Shown here in pieces: positions 32,449 to 38,757 of a DNA stretch of 46,830 nt; the first letter of the stretch is position 1; each line of letters opens with the position of its first letter. The notes under the pieces were generated by a model that was not told where the DNA came from, made no database searches, and saw only the letters and a list, made by a program, of their open reading frames with translations. The position numbers and the translations under genes were made by a program. Source of the DNA: Prevotella sp. (GTDB lineage Bacteria; Bacteroidota; Bacteroidia; Bacteroidales; Bacteroidaceae); the NCBI GenBank assembly GCA_017965475.1, contig JAGCPV010000174.1, positions 1-46,830 of the forward strand, given 5' to 3'.

Positions 32449-33582
32449 ATGAATAAGTATAATCCTTCACAGTTCGACGATATCCGTCCCTATTACGACA
32501 GTGAGATACCAGCAGCGATGCAGCGTATTGTCGAAAGCGATTTCTTCGGACTGTTGTGTACCTATGTTTATCCTGGTCGCAGTCAGGAAGATGTCAGGAA
32601 GATGATGCTCTCTTTCAAGACGATCCGTGACTTCCAACTGGAGGTGATGTTTCGTGTCAACGAACAGGTGATTGCCCGTTCCACCACGGCATTTACCTAT
32701 AGTGGTATTGAAAAACTGGATCCCAAGAAGCAGTATCTCTTTGTCAGCAACCATCGCGATATCATGCTCGACGCCTGTCTGCTGGAGTATTTATTAGCCA
32801 AGAACGGGCTCGACACGACGGAGATCACCTTTGGGGCCAACCTGATGTCGTCGCCACTGGTGATTGATATTGGCAAGGCCAATAAGATGTTCCGTGTGGA
32901 GCGTGGGGGAAACATGAAGGACTTCTATCTTTCCTCCAAGCACCTGAGTGATTATATCCGTTACGTGCTGACGGAGAAGGGACAGGGCATGTGGATAGCC
33001 CAGCGCAACGGACGTACGAAGGATGGTAAGGACCAGACGGATCAGGGCATCATCAAGATGTTCTGCATGAGTGAGCCCGAGGATAAGATCAAGGCCCTCT
33101 CGGAGTTGAACATCATCCCCGTGTCTGTCAGCTATGAGTGGGAGTCCTGCGACGTGCTGAAGGCGCTCGAACTCTATGCCTCCCGTTTCAGCAAGTATAT
33201 CAAGAAACCCGGCGAGGATCTGAACAGCATCCTCACGGGTATCGTCCAGCCAAAGGGTAGGGTGAACTTCACCTTCTGTGACCAGATCACGGAGGAGGAC
33301 CTGCACCAGTTTGATGGTTACACGAATAACGAGTACCACCGTGCTGTGGCCCAGTTGCTCGACAAGCGTATCAATGCCGCCTATCAGCTGACGCCCAACA
33401 ACTACATCGCCCATGATCTGCGCTATGGACAGCAGATCTACAGGAACCGTTATACGGATGCAGAGCGCGATGCCTTCCTCGCTCACATGGAGAAACTGAA
33501 CACCTTCGATATCTCCGAACCGGATGTGCTGAAGGATATCTTCCTGGGCATCTACTCGAATCCCATTGAGGCGAAGGAATAG
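32449..33582 (+). CDS. Glycerol-3-phosphate/1-acylglycerol-phosphate acyltransferase-like protein
   Basis: A 377-residue cytoplasmic or peripheral acyltransferase. YLFVSNHRDIMLDACLLEYLL holds the NHRD catalytic motif in a variant with one extra residue before the acidic partner, and MWIAQRNGRTKDGKD is the acceptor-binding segment. The family is common in Bacteroidetes and is related to PlsB/PlsC enzymes. It is probably the last gene of the 20-kb unit, 26 bases after the exporter fusion, although a housekeeping role in phospholipid synthesis cannot be excluded. No clear terminator is seen after it. Confidence 0.82.
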   Translation: MNKYNPSQFDDIRPYYDSEIPAAMQRIVESDFFGLLCTYVYPGRSQEDVRKMMLSFKTIRDFQLEVMFRVNEQVIARSTTAFTYSGIEKLDPKKQYLFVSNHRDIMLDACLLEYLLAKNGLDTTEITFGANLMSSPLVIDIGKANKMFRVERGGNMKDFYLSSKHLSDYIRYVLTEKGQGMWIAQRNGRTKDGKDQTDQGIIKMFCMSEPEDKIKALSELNIIPVSVSYEWESCDVLKALELYASRFSKYIKKPGEDLNSILTGIVQPKGRVNFTFCDQITEEDLHQFDGYTNNEYHRAVAQLLDKRINAAYQLTPNNYIAHDLRYGQQIYRNRYTDAERDAFLAHMEKLNTFDISEPDVLKDIFLGIYSNPIEAKE

Positions 33583-33620
33583 AAAAATGTAAGCGGAATC
33601 GCAAATTTTCTTGCAAAATA

Positions 33621-33652
33621 TTTGTTCAATTCACGGAAAAGTAATAATTTTG
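33621..33652 (+). promoter_or_regulatory. Promoter of the Phe/Tyr biosynthetic operon
   Basis: TTTG at 33621-33624, exactly 20 bases, then TAATTTTG at 33645-33652: a full match to the Bacteroidetes consensus. Transcription would start near 33659, about 20 bases upstream of the leader peptide ATG, so the whole attenuator is in the mRNA. Confidence 0.8.
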
Positions 33653-33679
33653 CAGCCGAAAACGATAAAAACGAGAAAG

Positions 33680-33757
33680 ATGTCAAAGTTGAACGCTTAC
33701 TTTTACGGCTATTACTTTTACTTTGCAAGCAATTGTGAAGCGGATAGTCGTAAGTAA
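33680..33757 (+). CDS. Phe/Tyr attenuator leader peptide (25 aa)
   Basis: A 25-codon ORF from ATG to TAA. Residues 7-15 read YFYGYYFYF: five Tyr and three Phe in nine codons. It lies between a strong promoter and an intrinsic terminator, directly upstream of pheA, an aminotransferase, DAHP synthase/chorismate mutase and tyrA. Ribosomes short of charged Tyr- or Phe-tRNA would stall there. Bases 33733-33744, inside the last third of this ORF, are the left arm of the antiterminator. The stalled ribosome leaves them free, whereas a ribosome reaching the stop codon covers them. Confidence 0.88.
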   Translation: MSKLNAYFYGYYFYFASNCEADSRK

Positions 33758-33807
33758 GATTGAACAATTGAAAGATTGAGAAAATGAAATAAGGCTCCGC
33801 TTCACAA
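33733..33807 (+). promoter_or_regulatory. Antiterminator of the Phe/Tyr attenuator
   Basis: TTGTGAAGCGGA (33733-33744) is the exact 12-base complement of TCCGCTTCACAA (33796-33807), and the latter is also the left arm of the terminator. The two structures are therefore mutually exclusive. CAATTGT (33730-33736) can alternatively pair with ACAATTG (33764-33770), a possible anti-antiterminator. The arrangement matches the trp/phe type of ribosome-dependent attenuation. Confidence 0.82.
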
Positions 33808-33832
33808 CCCAGTGAAAGCGGAGTTTCTTTTT
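33795..33832 (+). terminator. Attenuator terminator upstream of pheA
   Basis: CTCCGCTTCAC (33795-33805) pairs with GTGAAAGCGGAG (33812-33823) with a single bulged A and a six-base loop. It is followed by TTTCTTTTT. It ends about 45 bases before the pheA ATG and would stop transcription when aromatic tRNAs are fully charged. Confidence 0.88.
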
Positions 33833-33877
33833 AAGTGAATAGTGAAATAGTAAATAGTCAAATGGTCAAATAGAAAG

Positions 33878-34720
33878 ATGAAGAGAATTGCCATACAGGG
33901 AATTGAGGGTTCGTTCCACGATATCGCGGCACACCTGTATTTTGAGGGTGAACAGATCCAGCTGATCTGCTGCTCTACTTTCGAACAGGTGTTTCAGAAC
34001 CTCAAGCAGGATCCTACGGCCATCGGGATGCTCGCCATCGAGAATACGATTGCTGGCTCGCTGTTGCATAACTACGAGCTCTTGCGCGACAGCGGCACGA
34101 CGGTGGTAGGGGAGCATAAGTTGCACATCTCGCACTGCATCTGTTGTCTGCCTGAGGACGACTGGGACACGATCACGGAGGTGCACTCCCATCCTGTGGC
34201 CCTGATGCAGTGCCGTCAGTTCCTCGCCCAGCACCCGCAACTGAAAAACGTGGAGGCTGAGGATACGGCAGGCTCTGCCCAGATGATTGCTGAAGGCCAG
34301 AAGAAAGGGTGGGCTGCCATCTGTCATGCTGAGGCAGCCAGACTTTATGGTCTGAAGGTGCTTGAGGATCATATTGAGGACAACAAGCACAATTTCACCC
34401 GTTTCCTGGTGGTGTCGAATCCCAACAAGGCCGACATGCTGCGTCCCCTGCTGGAGACCAACAAGTCGAGCATCGTCTTCTCACTGCCCCACGAGGAGGG
34501 CTCGCTCTCGCACGTGCTCGCGATCCTTTCATTCTATAAGATCAACCTGACGAAGATTCAGTCGCTGCCCATCATCGGCAAAGAGTGGGAATACCTGTTC
34601 TATGTCGATGTGATGTACGACGACCTCACGCGATACCGTCAGAGCATTGATGCGATTATCCCTTTAACAAAAGATTTAAAGATATTAGGAGAATATAAAG
34701 ATGGCAAACAAACCAATTGA
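33878..34720 (+). CDS. pheA: Prephenate dehydratase
   Basis: A 280-residue monofunctional prephenate dehydratase, converting prephenate to phenylpyruvate for phenylalanine synthesis. RIAIQGIEGSFHDIAAHLYF begins the catalytic domain, IENTIAGSLLHNYELL is the conserved Asn/Ser segment and NFTRFLVV (T174-R175-F176) is the catalytic TRF motif. A C-terminal ACT domain (VFSLPHEEGSLSHVLAILSF, YLFYVDV) is the expected site of Phe feedback, though the usual ESRP is replaced by IQSLP. It is the first structural gene behind the attenuator and overlaps the aminotransferase by 20 bases. Confidence 0.95.
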   Translation: MKRIAIQGIEGSFHDIAAHLYFEGEQIQLICCSTFEQVFQNLKQDPTAIGMLAIENTIAGSLLHNYELLRDSGTTVVGEHKLHISHCICCLPEDDWDTITEVHSHPVALMQCRQFLAQHPQLKNVEAEDTAGSAQMIAEGQKKGWAAICHAEAARLYGLKVLEDHIEDNKHNFTRFLVVSNPNKADMLRPLLETNKSSIVFSLPHEEGSLSHVLAILSFYKINLTKIQSLPIIGKEWEYLFYVDVMYDDLTRYRQSIDAIIPLTKDLKILGEYKDGKQTN

Positions 34721-35876
34721 ACCCGCAGATAGATTAAGTTTAGTACAGGAGTACTACTTCAGCCGTAAACTGAAGGAAGTGGCCCAACTCAATGCTGAAG
34801 GCAAGGACATTATCAGTCTCGCCATTGGCAGTCCTGATATGCCCCCGTCAAAGCAGACCATCGAGAAACTCTGTGAGGTAGCGCATAATCCCAATGCCCA
34901 TGGTTACCAGCCCACGGGGGGGACGCCTGAACTGCGCGAGGCGATGGCCGGTTTCTACAAGCGTTGGTACGATGTTGATCTTGACCCCAAGACGGAGATC
35001 TTGCCGCTCATCGGCTCGAAGGAGGGTATCCTGCACGTCACATTGGCCTTCGTGAACCCTGGGGATGAGGTGCTCGTGCCCAATCCCGGCTATCCAACCT
35101 ACACCTCACTGTCGAAGATCCTCGGTGCGAAGATCGTGAACTACAACCTGCGCGAGGATAATGGCTGGCAGCCTGATTTCGACGAACTGGAGAAGATGGA
35201 TCTCTCGAAGGTGAAGCTCATGTGGACGAACTATCCCAATATGCCGACGGGTGGTAATGCCCGCCGTGAGACCTACGAGCGACTGGTGCAGTTTGCGAAG
35301 GCACATGGCATCGTGGTTGTCAATGATAATCCTTATAGTTTTATCCTGAGTGAGGAACATCTCTCGATTCTCCAGGTGCCAGGTGCCAAGGAGTGCTGTA
35401 TCGAGTTTAACTCGATGTCGAAGAGTCATAACATGCCAGGTTGGCGTGTGGGTATGTGTCTTACCAACGCTACGTTTATCTCCTGGATCATGAAGATCAA
35501 GTCGAACATCGACTCAGGTACCTTCCGAGGCATCCAACTTGCTGCTGCTGAGGCGCTGAGGAACGATGCCGCCTGGCATCATGAGGCGAATATCGAGACC
35601 TATGGTCGTCGCCGCCAGTATGCCGAGCAGATCATGGACGTCTTGGGCTGCACCTACGACAAAAATCAGGTGGGTATGTTCCTCTGGGGTAAGATCCCTG
35701 AGAAGTATGCCGACGTCGAGGATCTGACTGAAAAAGTTTTACACGAAGCACGTGTCTTTATCACCCCTGGCTTCATCTTCGGCTCCAATGGCAAGCGTTA
35801 CATCCGCATCTCCCTCTGTGCTAAGGAAGACAAAATCAAGCAAGCCTTGGAGCGCATCGAGAAAATAGTAAAATAG
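34701..35876 (+). CDS. PLP-dependent aminotransferase (class I/II) of the aromatic operon
   Basis: A 391-residue fold-type I aminotransferase. PTGGTPELREAMAGFY, PLIGSKEGILHVTLAF, NYPNMPTGG and the PLP-lysine segment NSMSKSHNMPGWRVG (K241) are as in the LL-DAP/aspartate-aromatic aminotransferase group. Its place between pheA and the DAHP synthase makes transamination of phenylpyruvate and 4-hydroxyphenylpyruvate (or prephenate) the likely reaction. Bacteroidetes operons of this layout are common. It starts within the 3' end of pheA. Confidence 0.9.
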   Translation: MANKPIEPADRLSLVQEYYFSRKLKEVAQLNAEGKDIISLAIGSPDMPPSKQTIEKLCEVAHNPNAHGYQPTGGTPELREAMAGFYKRWYDVDLDPKTEILPLIGSKEGILHVTLAFVNPGDEVLVPNPGYPTYTSLSKILGAKIVNYNLREDNGWQPDFDELEKMDLSKVKLMWTNYPNMPTGGNARRETYERLVQFAKAHGIVVVNDNPYSFILSEEHLSILQVPGAKECCIEFNSMSKSHNMPGWRVGMCLTNATFISWIMKIKSNIDSGTFRGIQLAAAEALRNDAAWHHEANIETYGRRRQYAEQIMDVLGCTYDKNQVGMFLWGKIPEKYADVEDLTEKVLHEARVFITPGFIFGSNGKRYIRISLCAKEDKIKQALERIEKIVK

Positions 35877-35904: not shown

Positions 35905-36969
35905 ATGGAACTGGATTTAGCCCCACTGAATTTACCAAGTGACAATGAACGTCCCTTCGTGATTGCAGGCCCTTGCTCTGCAGAGACAGAGGAACAAGTG
36001 ATGACTACGGCCAAGGAACTGGCGATGAAAGGTTGCCACAACTTCCGTGCCGGTGTGTGGAAACCCCGTACGAAACCAGGTGGCTTTGAGGGTCACGGAG
36101 AACCTGCCCTGAAATGGATGAAGCAGGTGAAGGACGAGACCAAGATGCTCGTCTCTACGGAGGTGGCTACGCCTGAGCATGTCGAACTGGCTCTGAAATA
36201 CGGCATCGACATCCTCTGGATTGGTGCCCGCACGTCAGCCAACCCCTTCGCCATGCAGGCCATTGCCGATGCCCTTCAGGGTGTCGATGTGCCCGTATTC
36301 GTGAAGAACCCCGTGAACCCTGACCTCGAACTTTGGATAGGTGCTCTGGAGCGTCTGAACCAGGCAGGTGTGAAGCGTCTGGGTGCTATCCATCGTGGCT
36401 TCTCCAGCTACGAGCAGAAGATCTATCGTAATGCCCCGATGTGGCAGATTCCCATCGAGCTGCGTCGCCGCATCCCGTCATTGCCGCTGATCAGTGACCC
36501 CTCACATATCGGAGGTCGTCGCGAACTGGTGGCCCCTCTCTGTCAGCAGGCAATGGACCTTGGCTTCGACGGTCTGATCGTCGAGAGCCACTGTGATCCT
36601 GACAAGGCGTGGAGTGATGCCAAGCAGCAGGTGACACCTGATGTGCTCGACTATATCCTCTCGCTGTTGGTGATTCGTGACGAGAAGCAATCGACGGAGG
36701 GTATCACCCAGTTGCGTAAGCAGATCGACGAGCTCGATAACCAGCTGATGGAACTGCTCTCGAAGCGCATGAAGGTTTGCCGCGAGATCGGCCAGTATAA
36801 GAAGGAGCACAATATGACCGTTCTTCAGGCCAATCGTTACAATGAGATCCTGAACAAGCGTGGTGCCCAGGGTTCGCTCTGTGGCATGGATCCCGAGTTT
36901 GTGGCCCACGTCTTCGAGAACATCCACGAAGAGTCCGTCCGTCAGCAGATAGAAATTATCAATAAGTAG
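35905..36969 (+). CDS. Bifunctional DAHP synthase / chorismate mutase type II
   Basis: A 354-residue fusion. Residues 1 to about 255 form a 3-deoxy-7-phosphoheptulonate synthase, first step of the shikimate pathway: FVIAGPCSAETEEQVMTTA, RAGVWKPRTKPGGFEG, KNPVNPDLELW, GAIHRGFSSYE and SDPSHIGGRRELV. Residues about 265-354 are an AroQ chorismate mutase (ITQLRKQIDELDNQLMELLSKRM, IGQYKKEHNM), which makes prephenate. The fusion channels carbon to Phe/Tyr, and the mutase domain often provides allosteric control in such enzymes. It lies 28 bases after the aminotransferase and four bases before tyrA. Confidence 0.95.
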   Translation: MELDLAPLNLPSDNERPFVIAGPCSAETEEQVMTTAKELAMKGCHNFRAGVWKPRTKPGGFEGHGEPALKWMKQVKDETKMLVSTEVATPEHVELALKYGIDILWIGARTSANPFAMQAIADALQGVDVPVFVKNPVNPDLELWIGALERLNQAGVKRLGAIHRGFSSYEQKIYRNAPMWQIPIELRRRIPSLPLISDPSHIGGRRELVAPLCQQAMDLGFDGLIVESHCDPDKAWSDAKQQVTPDVLDYILSLLVIRDEKQSTEGITQLRKQIDELDNQLMELLSKRMKVCREIGQYKKEHNMTVLQANRYNEILNKRGAQGSLCGMDPEFVAHVFENIHEESVRQQIEIINK

Positions 36970-36973
36970 GAGT

Positions 36974-37768
36974 ATGAAAATTCTTGTCATGGGTGCAGGT
37001 AAGATGGGAAGCTTCTTCATCGACCTGCTGAGTTTTGAACATGAGGTGGCGGTCTTTGAGCGCGACCCCAAACGCATGCGTTTTACATACAACTGTCAGC
37101 GCTTCACCACCTTCGACGAGATCCGCGAGTTCAAACCTGAACTGCTGATCAACGCCGTTACATTGAAATACACGATCCCCGTGTTCCGCGAGGTGATCCC
37201 CTTCTTGCCGAAGGAGTGTATCATCAGCGATATCGCTTCAGTGAAGACCGACCTGAAGGAGTTCTACGAGAGCACGGGCATGCGCTACGTCTCAACACAC
37301 CCGATGTTCGGCCCGACATTCGCCAACCTCCAGCAGCTCTCTGAGGAGAACGCCATTATCATCAGTGAGGGCGACTACATGGGGCGTATCTTCTTCAAGG
37401 ACTTATACCAAAAATTAGGACTAAATATCTACGAGTATTCGTTCGAGGAGCACGATAAGACGGTGGCTTACTCGTTGTCGATCCCGTTTGTGAGCACCTT
37501 CGTGTTCGCTGCCGTGATGAAGCATCAGGACGCGCCAGGTACCACCTTCAAGCGCCACATGCGCATTGCTAAAGGTGTTCTCAACGAGGACGACTATCTG
37601 TTGCAGGAGATCCTCTTCAACCCCTATACCCATGATCAGGTCTCTCAGATCCGTACGGAGCTGAAGGAACTGTTGGAGATCATCGACACCAAGGATGCTG
37701 AGGGCATGAAGGGCTACCTGACGAAAATTCGCAACAATGTAAAGCGGGATATTGAAATCAAGAAGTAA
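36974..37768 (+). CDS. tyrA: Prephenate dehydrogenase
   Basis: A 264-residue TyrA that oxidises prephenate to 4-hydroxyphenylpyruvate. MKILVMGAGKMGSFFIDLL is the NAD-binding loop, CIISDIASVKTDLKEF the dinucleotide-proximal helix, and STHPMFGPTFANLQ the catalytic His region. The dimerisation helices follow (HDKTVAYSLSIPFVSTFVFAAV). There is no C-terminal ACT domain, so control may rest on the attenuator and the upstream enzymes. It closes the Phe/Tyr set. Confidence 0.94.
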   Translation: MKILVMGAGKMGSFFIDLLSFEHEVAVFERDPKRMRFTYNCQRFTTFDEIREFKPELLINAVTLKYTIPVFREVIPFLPKECIISDIASVKTDLKEFYESTGMRYVSTHPMFGPTFANLQQLSEENAIIISEGDYMGRIFFKDLYQKLGLNIYEYSFEEHDKTVAYSLSIPFVSTFVFAAVMKHQDAPGTTFKRHMRIAKGVLNEDDYLLQEILFNPYTHDQVSQIRTELKELLEIIDTKDAEGMKGYLTKIRNNVKRDIEIKK

Positions 37769-37773
37769 GCGCT

Positions 37774-38757
37774 TTGGGCACAGGTTCGTCGCATAGACTG
37801 TTGTTATATCATCTCGTCGCCTTTGTGACGGTGGCCATCTGGGGTAGCACCTTTGTCTTTACGAAGTTGCTGCTCCAGAGTGGTTTGTCCCCTGCGCAGA
37901 TCTTCACCCTTCGCTTTATCATTGCCTACGTGCTCCTGCTGGGCTATTCCATGATTATAGAATTCCCCGCCCCTTTAAGAGGAGGGGTTAGGGGTGGGGT
38001 AACCTCTTTCCACTGGTTCTGCACTTCCTGGAAAGACGAACTCCTGATGGTTGTTCTCGGCCTTGCGGGCGGCTCCGTCTATTTCCTCACGGAAAACGCG
38101 GCGATGCTCTACACCACGGCCACGAACACCTCCCTGATCGTCTGTTCCTGTCCGCTGTTCGCGATGCTGCTCTATGCACTGATCTATCGCTACTCGGAGT
38201 CGATCTCGAAGATCCAGGCTCTGGGTTCCGTCATCGCCTGTATAGGTATGGCCGTCGTGGTGCTCAATGGTCATTTCGTGCTTCATCTTTCCCCCTTGGG
38301 CGATACACTCGCCTTTGGCGCTTGTCTCTGTTGGGCGGTGTATAGTCTGTTAATGAAGCCTGCCACTGAACGTTATTCCTCCCTGTTCATCACACGCAAG
38401 GTGTTCTTCTATGGTCTCCTCACCATCGTCCCGTATTTTATCCTTAGGCCTGAGGAAGCCTGGATCTTTACACCTTCCATTCTCCAATTCTTCAATCTTT
38501 CCATTCTCCTGAATCTGCTGTTTCTGGGTGTCGTTGCCTCGATGATCTGTTATGTCACCTGGAATTGGGTCATCAGCAAACTCGGTGCCGTCATCGCCAC
38601 CAACTGGGTGTATTTCAATCCCATCACCACCATTCTCTTCGCCTGGTGGCTCCTCCACGAACAGATCACCGTCTGGTTCCTTCTCGGCACCGCCCTCATC
38701 CTCACAGGCATGATCCTCGCCGAAAAACCTCGTACTGGGGTCAGGCCCCGACACTAA
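37774..38757 (+). CDS. EamA-family (DMT) transporter with repeat-derived insertions
   Basis: A transporter of up to 327 residues with two EamA repeats and about ten hydrophobic helices. The first is FVTVAIWGSTFVFTKLLL and the last VWFLLGTALILTGMILAE. No ATG is near the N terminus; TTG at 37774, five bases after tyrA, gives a full first helix, and TTG at 37801 is an alternative. Residues about 65-77 (PAPLRGGVRGGVT), between helices two and three, are encoded by a GC-rich palindrome. The last residues (RTGVRPRH) come from a second repeat that also supplies the stop codon. Both look like insertions tolerated in cytoplasmic parts. Substrate unknown; amino acid or metabolite efflux is typical. Confidence 0.83.
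   Translation: MGTGSSHRLLLYHLVAFVTVAIWGSTFVFTKLLLQSGLSPAQIFTLRFIIAYVLLLGYSMIIEFPAPLRGGVRGGVTSFHWFCTSWKDELLMVVLGLAGGSVYFLTENAAMLYTTATNTSLIVCSCPLFAMLLYALIYRYSESISKIQALGSVIACIGMAVVVLNGHFVLHLSPLGDTLAFGACLCWAVYSLLMKPATERYSSLFITRKVFFYGLLTIVPYFILRPEEAWIFTPSILQFFNLSILLNLLFLGVVASMICYVTWNWVISKLGAVIATNWVYFNPITTILFAWWLLHEQITVWFLLGTALILTGMILAEKPRTGVRPRH
37964..38003 (+). repeat. GC-rich palindromic repeat inside the EamA gene
   Basis: CCCCGCCCCT (37965-37974) pairs with AGGGGTGGGG (37990-37999) with one G-T wobble. The centre contains a second possible pairing of CCCCT with AGGAGGGG. It is in frame and encodes a Gly/Arg/Pro stretch between membrane helices. Such elements look like dispersed palindromic repeats of the genome, but only one clear copy is in this window. 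Confidence 0.55.

Follow-up and report, generated by a model that had tools for sequence, protein, structure and literature searches.

The DNA studied is a 46.8-kb window (the whole stretch that was analysed) from a Prevotella-like genome, in which a pheA operon with a 5′ leader region lies on the plus strand. To our knowledge, no regulator of this pheA–aminotransferase–DAHPS/CM–tyrA operon has been demonstrated experimentally in gut or rumen Bacteroidia. The promoter, the leader and the genes are as follows.

33621–33652, plus strand: Bacteroidetes-type promoter, TTTG (33621–33624), 20 nt, TAATTTTG (33645–33652), read from the sequence
33680–33757, plus strand: leader peptide ORF of 25 codons plus TAA, read from the sequence and conserved in 78/80 close relatives
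33698–33724, plus strand: putative regulatory codons YFYGYYFYF (5 Tyr, 3 Phe, 1 Gly), from the sequence and a codon content that tracks gene content
33878–34720, plus strand: pheA, prephenate dehydratase (Pfam PF00800, E 2.2e-58)
34701–35876, plus strand: aminotransferase class I/II (Pfam PF00155, E 7.7e-63)
35905–36969, plus strand: DAHP synthase (DAHPS) fused to chorismate mutase (CM) (Pfam PF00793 and PF01817)
36974–37768, plus strand: tyrA, prephenate dehydrogenase (Pfam PF02153, E 4.6e-10)

A gene for an EamA-family transporter (37774–38757, same strand) lies 3′ of tyrA and could be part of the operon.

The leader ORF at 33680–33757 is translated as MSKLNAYFYGYYFYFASNCEADSRK, followed by the stop. 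Eight of the nine codons at 33698–33724 are aromatic, making this a short ORF rich in codons for the products of the operon. An earlier reading of the sequence alone had described a 25-residue leader with this run of eight aromatic codons in nine, and the run is read directly at that place. The same reading placed the leader behind a “consensus promoter”. A promoter does exist, in the form that we take to be the Bacteroidetes consensus, TTTG-N20-TAATTTTG. Of 79 rows with a leader (two of them duplicate the window locus), 78 have a match to this form 5′ of it, and shuffles gave 2 in 1580. It is not of the sigma-70 type, as a sigma-70 scan of 33300–34200 returned no promoter.

Alternative pairings of the leader RNA

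Segments 1, 2, 3 and 4 of the classical attenuation model are all there, with the sensing codons themselves as segment 1. The elements below were located by sequence, folding and comparison.

33696–33728, plus strand: segment 1, the 5′ arm of the 1:2 hairpin, made up of the aromatic codons themselves (fold; helix pairing in 72 Prevotella sequences)
33733–33758, plus strand: 3′ arm of the 1:2 hairpin, containing segment 2 (fold; pairing in 72 sequences)
33733–33744, plus strand: segment 2, the 5′ strand of the antiterminator (exact complement of 33796–33807)
33796–33807, plus strand: segment 3, common to antiterminator and terminator (sequence; pairing in 72 sequences)
33794–33832, plus strand: intrinsic terminator, hairpin 33794–33824 with a T tract to 33832 (sequence; fold; 3:4 98 percent paired)

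Over 12 bases, TTGTGAAGCGGA at 33733–33744 is the exact reverse complement of TCCGCTTCACAA at 33796–33807. The latter segment contains most of the left arm of the hairpin 33794–33824; TTTCTTTTT comes next. The antiterminator pairing put forward in the sequence-only reading is thus exact, and none of 2000 leader shuffles paired with the terminator arm as well as the real leader. An exact 12-base inverted pair with its second copy within the next 80 nt occurs at only four other places in the window. The region 33668–33838 folds at −47.1 kcal/mol (z −4.3; 0/200 shuffles as good), and its lowest-energy fold has a long hairpin of 33696–33728 with 33733–33758 (1:2). Sequence and fold, with Pfam for the genes, also uphold a terminator that shares the right-hand segment of the antiterminator and precedes pheA–aminotransferase–DAHPS/CM–tyrA. 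The parts of the switch do stand in the right order, and the third classical element, the 1:2 leader hairpin, had been overlooked earlier.

A simple terminator scan reported one terminator on the other strand only and missed that at 33794–33832, because the bulged stem does not fit the scan pattern; folding does find it. Searched against Rfam 15 (4227 RNA families), the whole window had no hit that reached the gathering score. Relaxing the limit to E 10 brought only four low-scoring hits, to families of eukaryotic snoRNA/lncRNA or of unrelated sRNA. Rfam 15 presumably includes the T-box families and that of the E. coli-type Phe leader, and a T-box or riboswitch was dropped as a candidate on the lack of a match.

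Pairing was compared in 72 unique Prevotella sequences, with one side of each pairing shifted by 1–3 columns as a slid control. The three helices of 1:2 were paired to 100 percent (inner), 85 percent (middle) and 70 percent (outer), where the slid controls reached at most 62, 47 and 48 percent; 2:3 was 92 percent paired (best slid control 58 percent) and 3:4 was 98 percent paired (slid at most 51 percent). The set came from 86 relatives and the window, with 11 dropped: L017, L051, L050 and L083 at the leader or length filter, and L028, L067 and L088–L092 at the terminator filter, where the first regular expression was too strict. L067 and L088–L092 have terminators by eye, and only L028 is without a right arm. 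Upstream of pheA in L028 the leader and the left arm of the terminator are intact; the missing right arm may truly have been lost, or short repeats may have collapsed in the assembly.

Compensatory changes in the shared arm, which had been proposed as a check, were found as pair-keeping double changes at 2 of the 12 terminator (3:4) pairs, in 23 and 34 of the 72 sequences. Such changes also occur in one of the 12 pairs of 2:3 and in one of the eight pairs of the inner 1:2 helix (30/72 sequences). Most 2:3 pairs never vary and are evidence in neither direction. The third positions of TTT TAC TTT GCA hardly vary because the aromatic codons double as the pairing arm of segment 1.

With high probability, this leader acts as a ribosome-mediated transcription attenuator of pheA–aminotransferase–DAHPS/CM–tyrA, with charged tRNA-Tyr and tRNA-Phe as its signals. 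When tRNA-Tyr or tRNA-Phe is short, the ribosome would stall in codons 7–15 and cover segment 1. This would leave segment 2 free to pair with segment 3 as the latter leaves the polymerase, so that 2:3 would block the terminator and the operon would be read. When both charged tRNAs are plentiful, the ribosome would reach the stop codon near 33755 and there hide the greater part of segment 2; transcription would then be halted near 33832 by the 3:4 terminator. We infer the ribosome stalling, the co-transcriptional timing and the response to Tyr and Phe supply.

The 2:3 duplex (−23.6 kcal/mol) is weaker than 3:4 (−28.5 kcal/mol), so antitermination has to be kinetic, a matter of timing, as in the classical model. 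With a modelled ribosome whose A site is at the tested codons 7–14, the RNA outside it forms the complete 2:3 duplex ahead of the synthesis of segment 4; for codon 15, 10 of the 12 pairs form by then. Once segment 4 exists, 3:4 is the more stable. With the modelled ribosome at the stop codon, the free RNA folds into 3:4, the only one possible. In the absence of a ribosome, RNA ending just beyond segment 3 also prefers 2:3 (−27.0 kcal/mol). The untranslated state is therefore not clearly “off” in the model, and 1:2 does not clearly win without a ribosome.

The full transcript without a ribosome already folds into 1:2 and the terminator, as would be expected if termination took place but depended solely on Rho, an RNA-binding protein or RNA folding, with the leader ORF as a by-product. 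That reading is extremely improbable, since the frame and the aromatic codons within it persist over very divergent loci and the codon mix tracks gene content.

Conservation of the leader in the Bacteroidia

The leader of the sequence-only reading is conserved, being present in 78/80 close relatives (named Prevotella-type loci), in 28/29 other own-family genomes (the best 29 of 127 other genomes with a pheA match) and in 118/140 further Bacteroidia loci. The two exceptions among the close relatives, L017 and L051, are on contigs that end too near pheA, with only 140 and 117 nt upstream. The 118 loci, in other Bacteroidia families, have an ATG leader with at least five aromatics in 10 residues (shuffles 208/2800); at least seven are found in 104/140 loci and in 8/2800 shuffles, and on these counts a chance aromatic ORF was dropped as an explanation. 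A terminator follows 3′ of the leader in 114 of the 118. Of 135 leader–terminator pairs from Bacteroidia loci, 106 have a 2:3 duplex that surpasses shuffles (p 0.05 or better); the other 29, which include two of the six stand-alone cases scored (L197 and L299), have none at 0.05. An ATG leader is absent by the filter in 22/140 loci. The ATG-only filter misses GTG and TTG leaders, seen by eye for example in L441, L445, L210, L234 and L326. Other classes of the phylum gave a match in 172 genomes, and no comparable leader was seen at the best-scoring 29 loci.

Within the Prevotella set the core YFYGYYFYF hardly changes. Such constancy might point to a regulatory arrest peptide, in which the peptide sequence, and not codon starvation, would cause stalling once free Tyr or Phe is bound; TnaC is an arrest peptide that stalls the ribosome with Trp. 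Across families, however, aromatic richness is kept and the order is not, with Tyr and Phe exchanging places freely between lineages, and on this variation a specific arrest peptide was dropped. In Prevotella the 1:2 and 2:3 pairing accounts for the invariance, which extends to third codon positions. An arrest peptide thus appears very improbable, and the free order of Tyr and Phe would suit codon sensing better.

In a separate observation, the leader of L259 (family f159, another order), MKFNNAYFYGYYFYFTSKSRD, has the exact core AYFYGYYFYF of the window; descent, transfer and convergence are all possible.

Two complete leader–terminator units stand in series at about 20 of the 140 loci, in several families, while the window has one. 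The count follows from 21 loci flagged as tandem, less L208, which has two overlapping ORFs and one terminator. Examples 5′ of pheA are L195, L207, L217, L224, L314, L328, L333, L335 and L351, among others. Tandem units also precede two detached tyrA operons, L436 and L437. The tandem attenuators of Salmonella mgtCBR are alike in having two leader ORFs in series, but belong to another operon with other signals, whereas the tandem aromatic units carry the same kind of codon twice (PMC3641672).

Elsewhere in the genome of the window, none of the short ATG ORFs listed around hisG (L438) is a His-rich leader, and attenuation is therefore not the general rule of that genome. This is unlike the hint for Flavobacterium hisG (PMC9723704). 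At trpE, a trpB-like gene lies 5′ of it at the contig end. A pattern search of the genome for five Tyr/Phe codons gave 56 matches against 83 for the reversed-pattern control, and was of no help in finding other leaders.

Leader codon content tracks gene content

The main new result is that the codon content of the leader tracks the gene content of the operon. Where pheA stands with DAHPS and/or tyrA, Tyr makes up 45% of the Tyr and Phe codons of the leader core (453/1008; 453 Tyr, 555 Phe). These 106 loci have a leader with a terminator, and DAHPS and/or tyrA 3′ of pheA on the same strand; tyrA itself was detected in 73. Where pheA stands alone with a leader, Tyr makes up 4% (4/93; 4 Tyr, 89 Phe) in 15 genomes of five lineages. 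At least one Tyr codon is present in the core of all 127 leaders at operon loci. A permutation over loci reached this association in 0 of 100000 trials, uncorrected for kinship, for which five of five lineages is the fair count. The proposal that mixed Tyr and Phe sensing fits an operon making both amino acids is therefore borne out against gene content (45% Tyr in operons vs 4% in stand-alone genes).

The five stand-alone lineages are the own-family genus g10 and the families f19, f29, f39 and f99. Their 15 genomes comprise six from the 140 loci, a further eight from family f39 (the families of three were sampled further) and the own-family L440. The stand-alone status was checked over more than 5 kb in 10 of the 15, over 3.2 kb in one and over about 2 kb in four. 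Among the 140 loci, 17 are without DAHPS or tyrA within more than 5 kb. Six of these have a leader with a terminator, with 2 Tyr and 38 Phe codons, and the other 11 have none; a leader is likewise absent in 4/13 f39 loci and 6/8 f29 loci.

The change can be followed within genus g10. Its operon loci have five ATG leaders with 4–7 Tyr in the core, and the GTG-start leaders of L441 and L445 are Tyr-rich by eye, while the lone stand-alone pheA (L440) has a leader with six Phe and no Tyr. L097/L440 had been considered as an own-family counter-example on account of its Phe-only leader, and was rejected as such since its pheA is stand-alone.

Seven genomes with a detached pheA were searched for tyrA, and a separate tyrA was found in six. 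All six separate tyrA operons have their own Tyr-rich leader with a terminator 3′ of it; together these leaders count 39 Tyr and 26 Phe (60 percent Tyr). In one of the six, G291, pheA is without any leader. Trp codons number 30 in the 127 leader cores of pheA operons, and there are none in the 15 stand-alone pheA leader cores. Trp codons are seen where the operon includes DAHPS, which also feeds Trp synthesis.

The switch could instead answer to Phe only, with the Tyr codons as tolerated filler that keeps segment 1 pyrimidine-rich for pairing. The aromatic codons of Prevotella do also form a hairpin arm. The aroR–aroF attenuator of Corynebacterium glutamicum resembles the window in having a Phe-Tyr-Phe leader 5′ of a DAHPS gene, and reportedly answers to Phe but not to Tyr, which calls for caution on Tyr sensing at the window leader; it differs in having three aromatic residues and in belonging to a different phylum (PMC11802643). 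Filler would not, however, track gene content, and Tyr is nearly absent from the stand-alone pheA leaders of five lineages (4/93 aromatic codons) and rises to 60 percent at the detached tyrA/DAHPS operons. A response to Phe only is for these reasons considered unlikely.

The comparison suggests that there is probably one old family of attenuators for aromatic synthesis in the class Bacteroidia, whose codon mix has been rewritten by gene rearrangement. It would read Tyr and Phe (sometimes Trp) with DAHPS and tyrA, Phe alone where pheA moved away, and be Tyr-rich where tyrA/DAHPS moved away, with some lineages stacking two units.

Known attenuators and significance

By anatomy and comparison, the element appears to be a real attenuator of a known kind, and its mixed Tyr/Phe specificity is supported by the comparison between genomes. 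It is like the pheL–pheA attenuator of E. coli in its aromatic leader peptide, alternative hairpins and terminator 5′ of pheA. The pheL leader has Phe only, and E. coli pheA is not in an operon with tyrA. In contrast, the window leader has five Tyr and three Phe codons 5′ of a Phe/Tyr operon and matches no Rfam family. The pheL–pheA system has been named as an attenuator (PMC11802643), and in Acholeplasma a Phe-coding uORF has been described 5′ of aroF (PMC8632094).

Attenuation 5′ of amino-acid operons in this phylum is already in print and is not new. The 2004 survey of Vitreschak et al. reportedly included Bacteroidetes/Chlorobi attenuators and is said to predict classical attenuation in the phylum. 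In Flavobacterium psychrophilum, of the same phylum, 5′ elements have been reported before pheA and hisG, with clues to leader-peptide attenuation at amino-acid operons (PMC9723704). The pheA element there is likewise a conserved structured 5′ element and is very likely the same kind of switch as in the window; the portion of that text considered differs in holding no Tyr/Phe codon analysis, link to gene content or tandem units (PMC9723704). Bacteroides thetaiotaomicron, of the same order as the window organism, has long 5′ UTRs with sORFs “reminiscent of leader peptides”, for which leader-peptide attenuation was proposed, but pheA and phenylalanine are absent from the main text (PMC7366714). 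Nothing was found in the open-access literature on tyrosine codons in leader-peptide attenuation, nor on Bacteroidota attenuators, which is weak evidence of novelty.

The leader RNA 5′ of pheA has the look of an off switch worked by translation. The Bacteroidia of gut and rumen are major producers of aromatic amino acids. Such a switch raises the question of whether the coupling of ribosome and polymerase is tight enough for attenuation in the Bacteroidota. As its specificity can be read from the codons and shifts with gene content in at least five lineages, the system offers a direct comparative test of codon sensing. If there is indeed one retuned family of attenuators, Tyr would be a genuine attenuation signal, and the Bacteroidia would hold many natural replicates of the retuning of a codon sensor.
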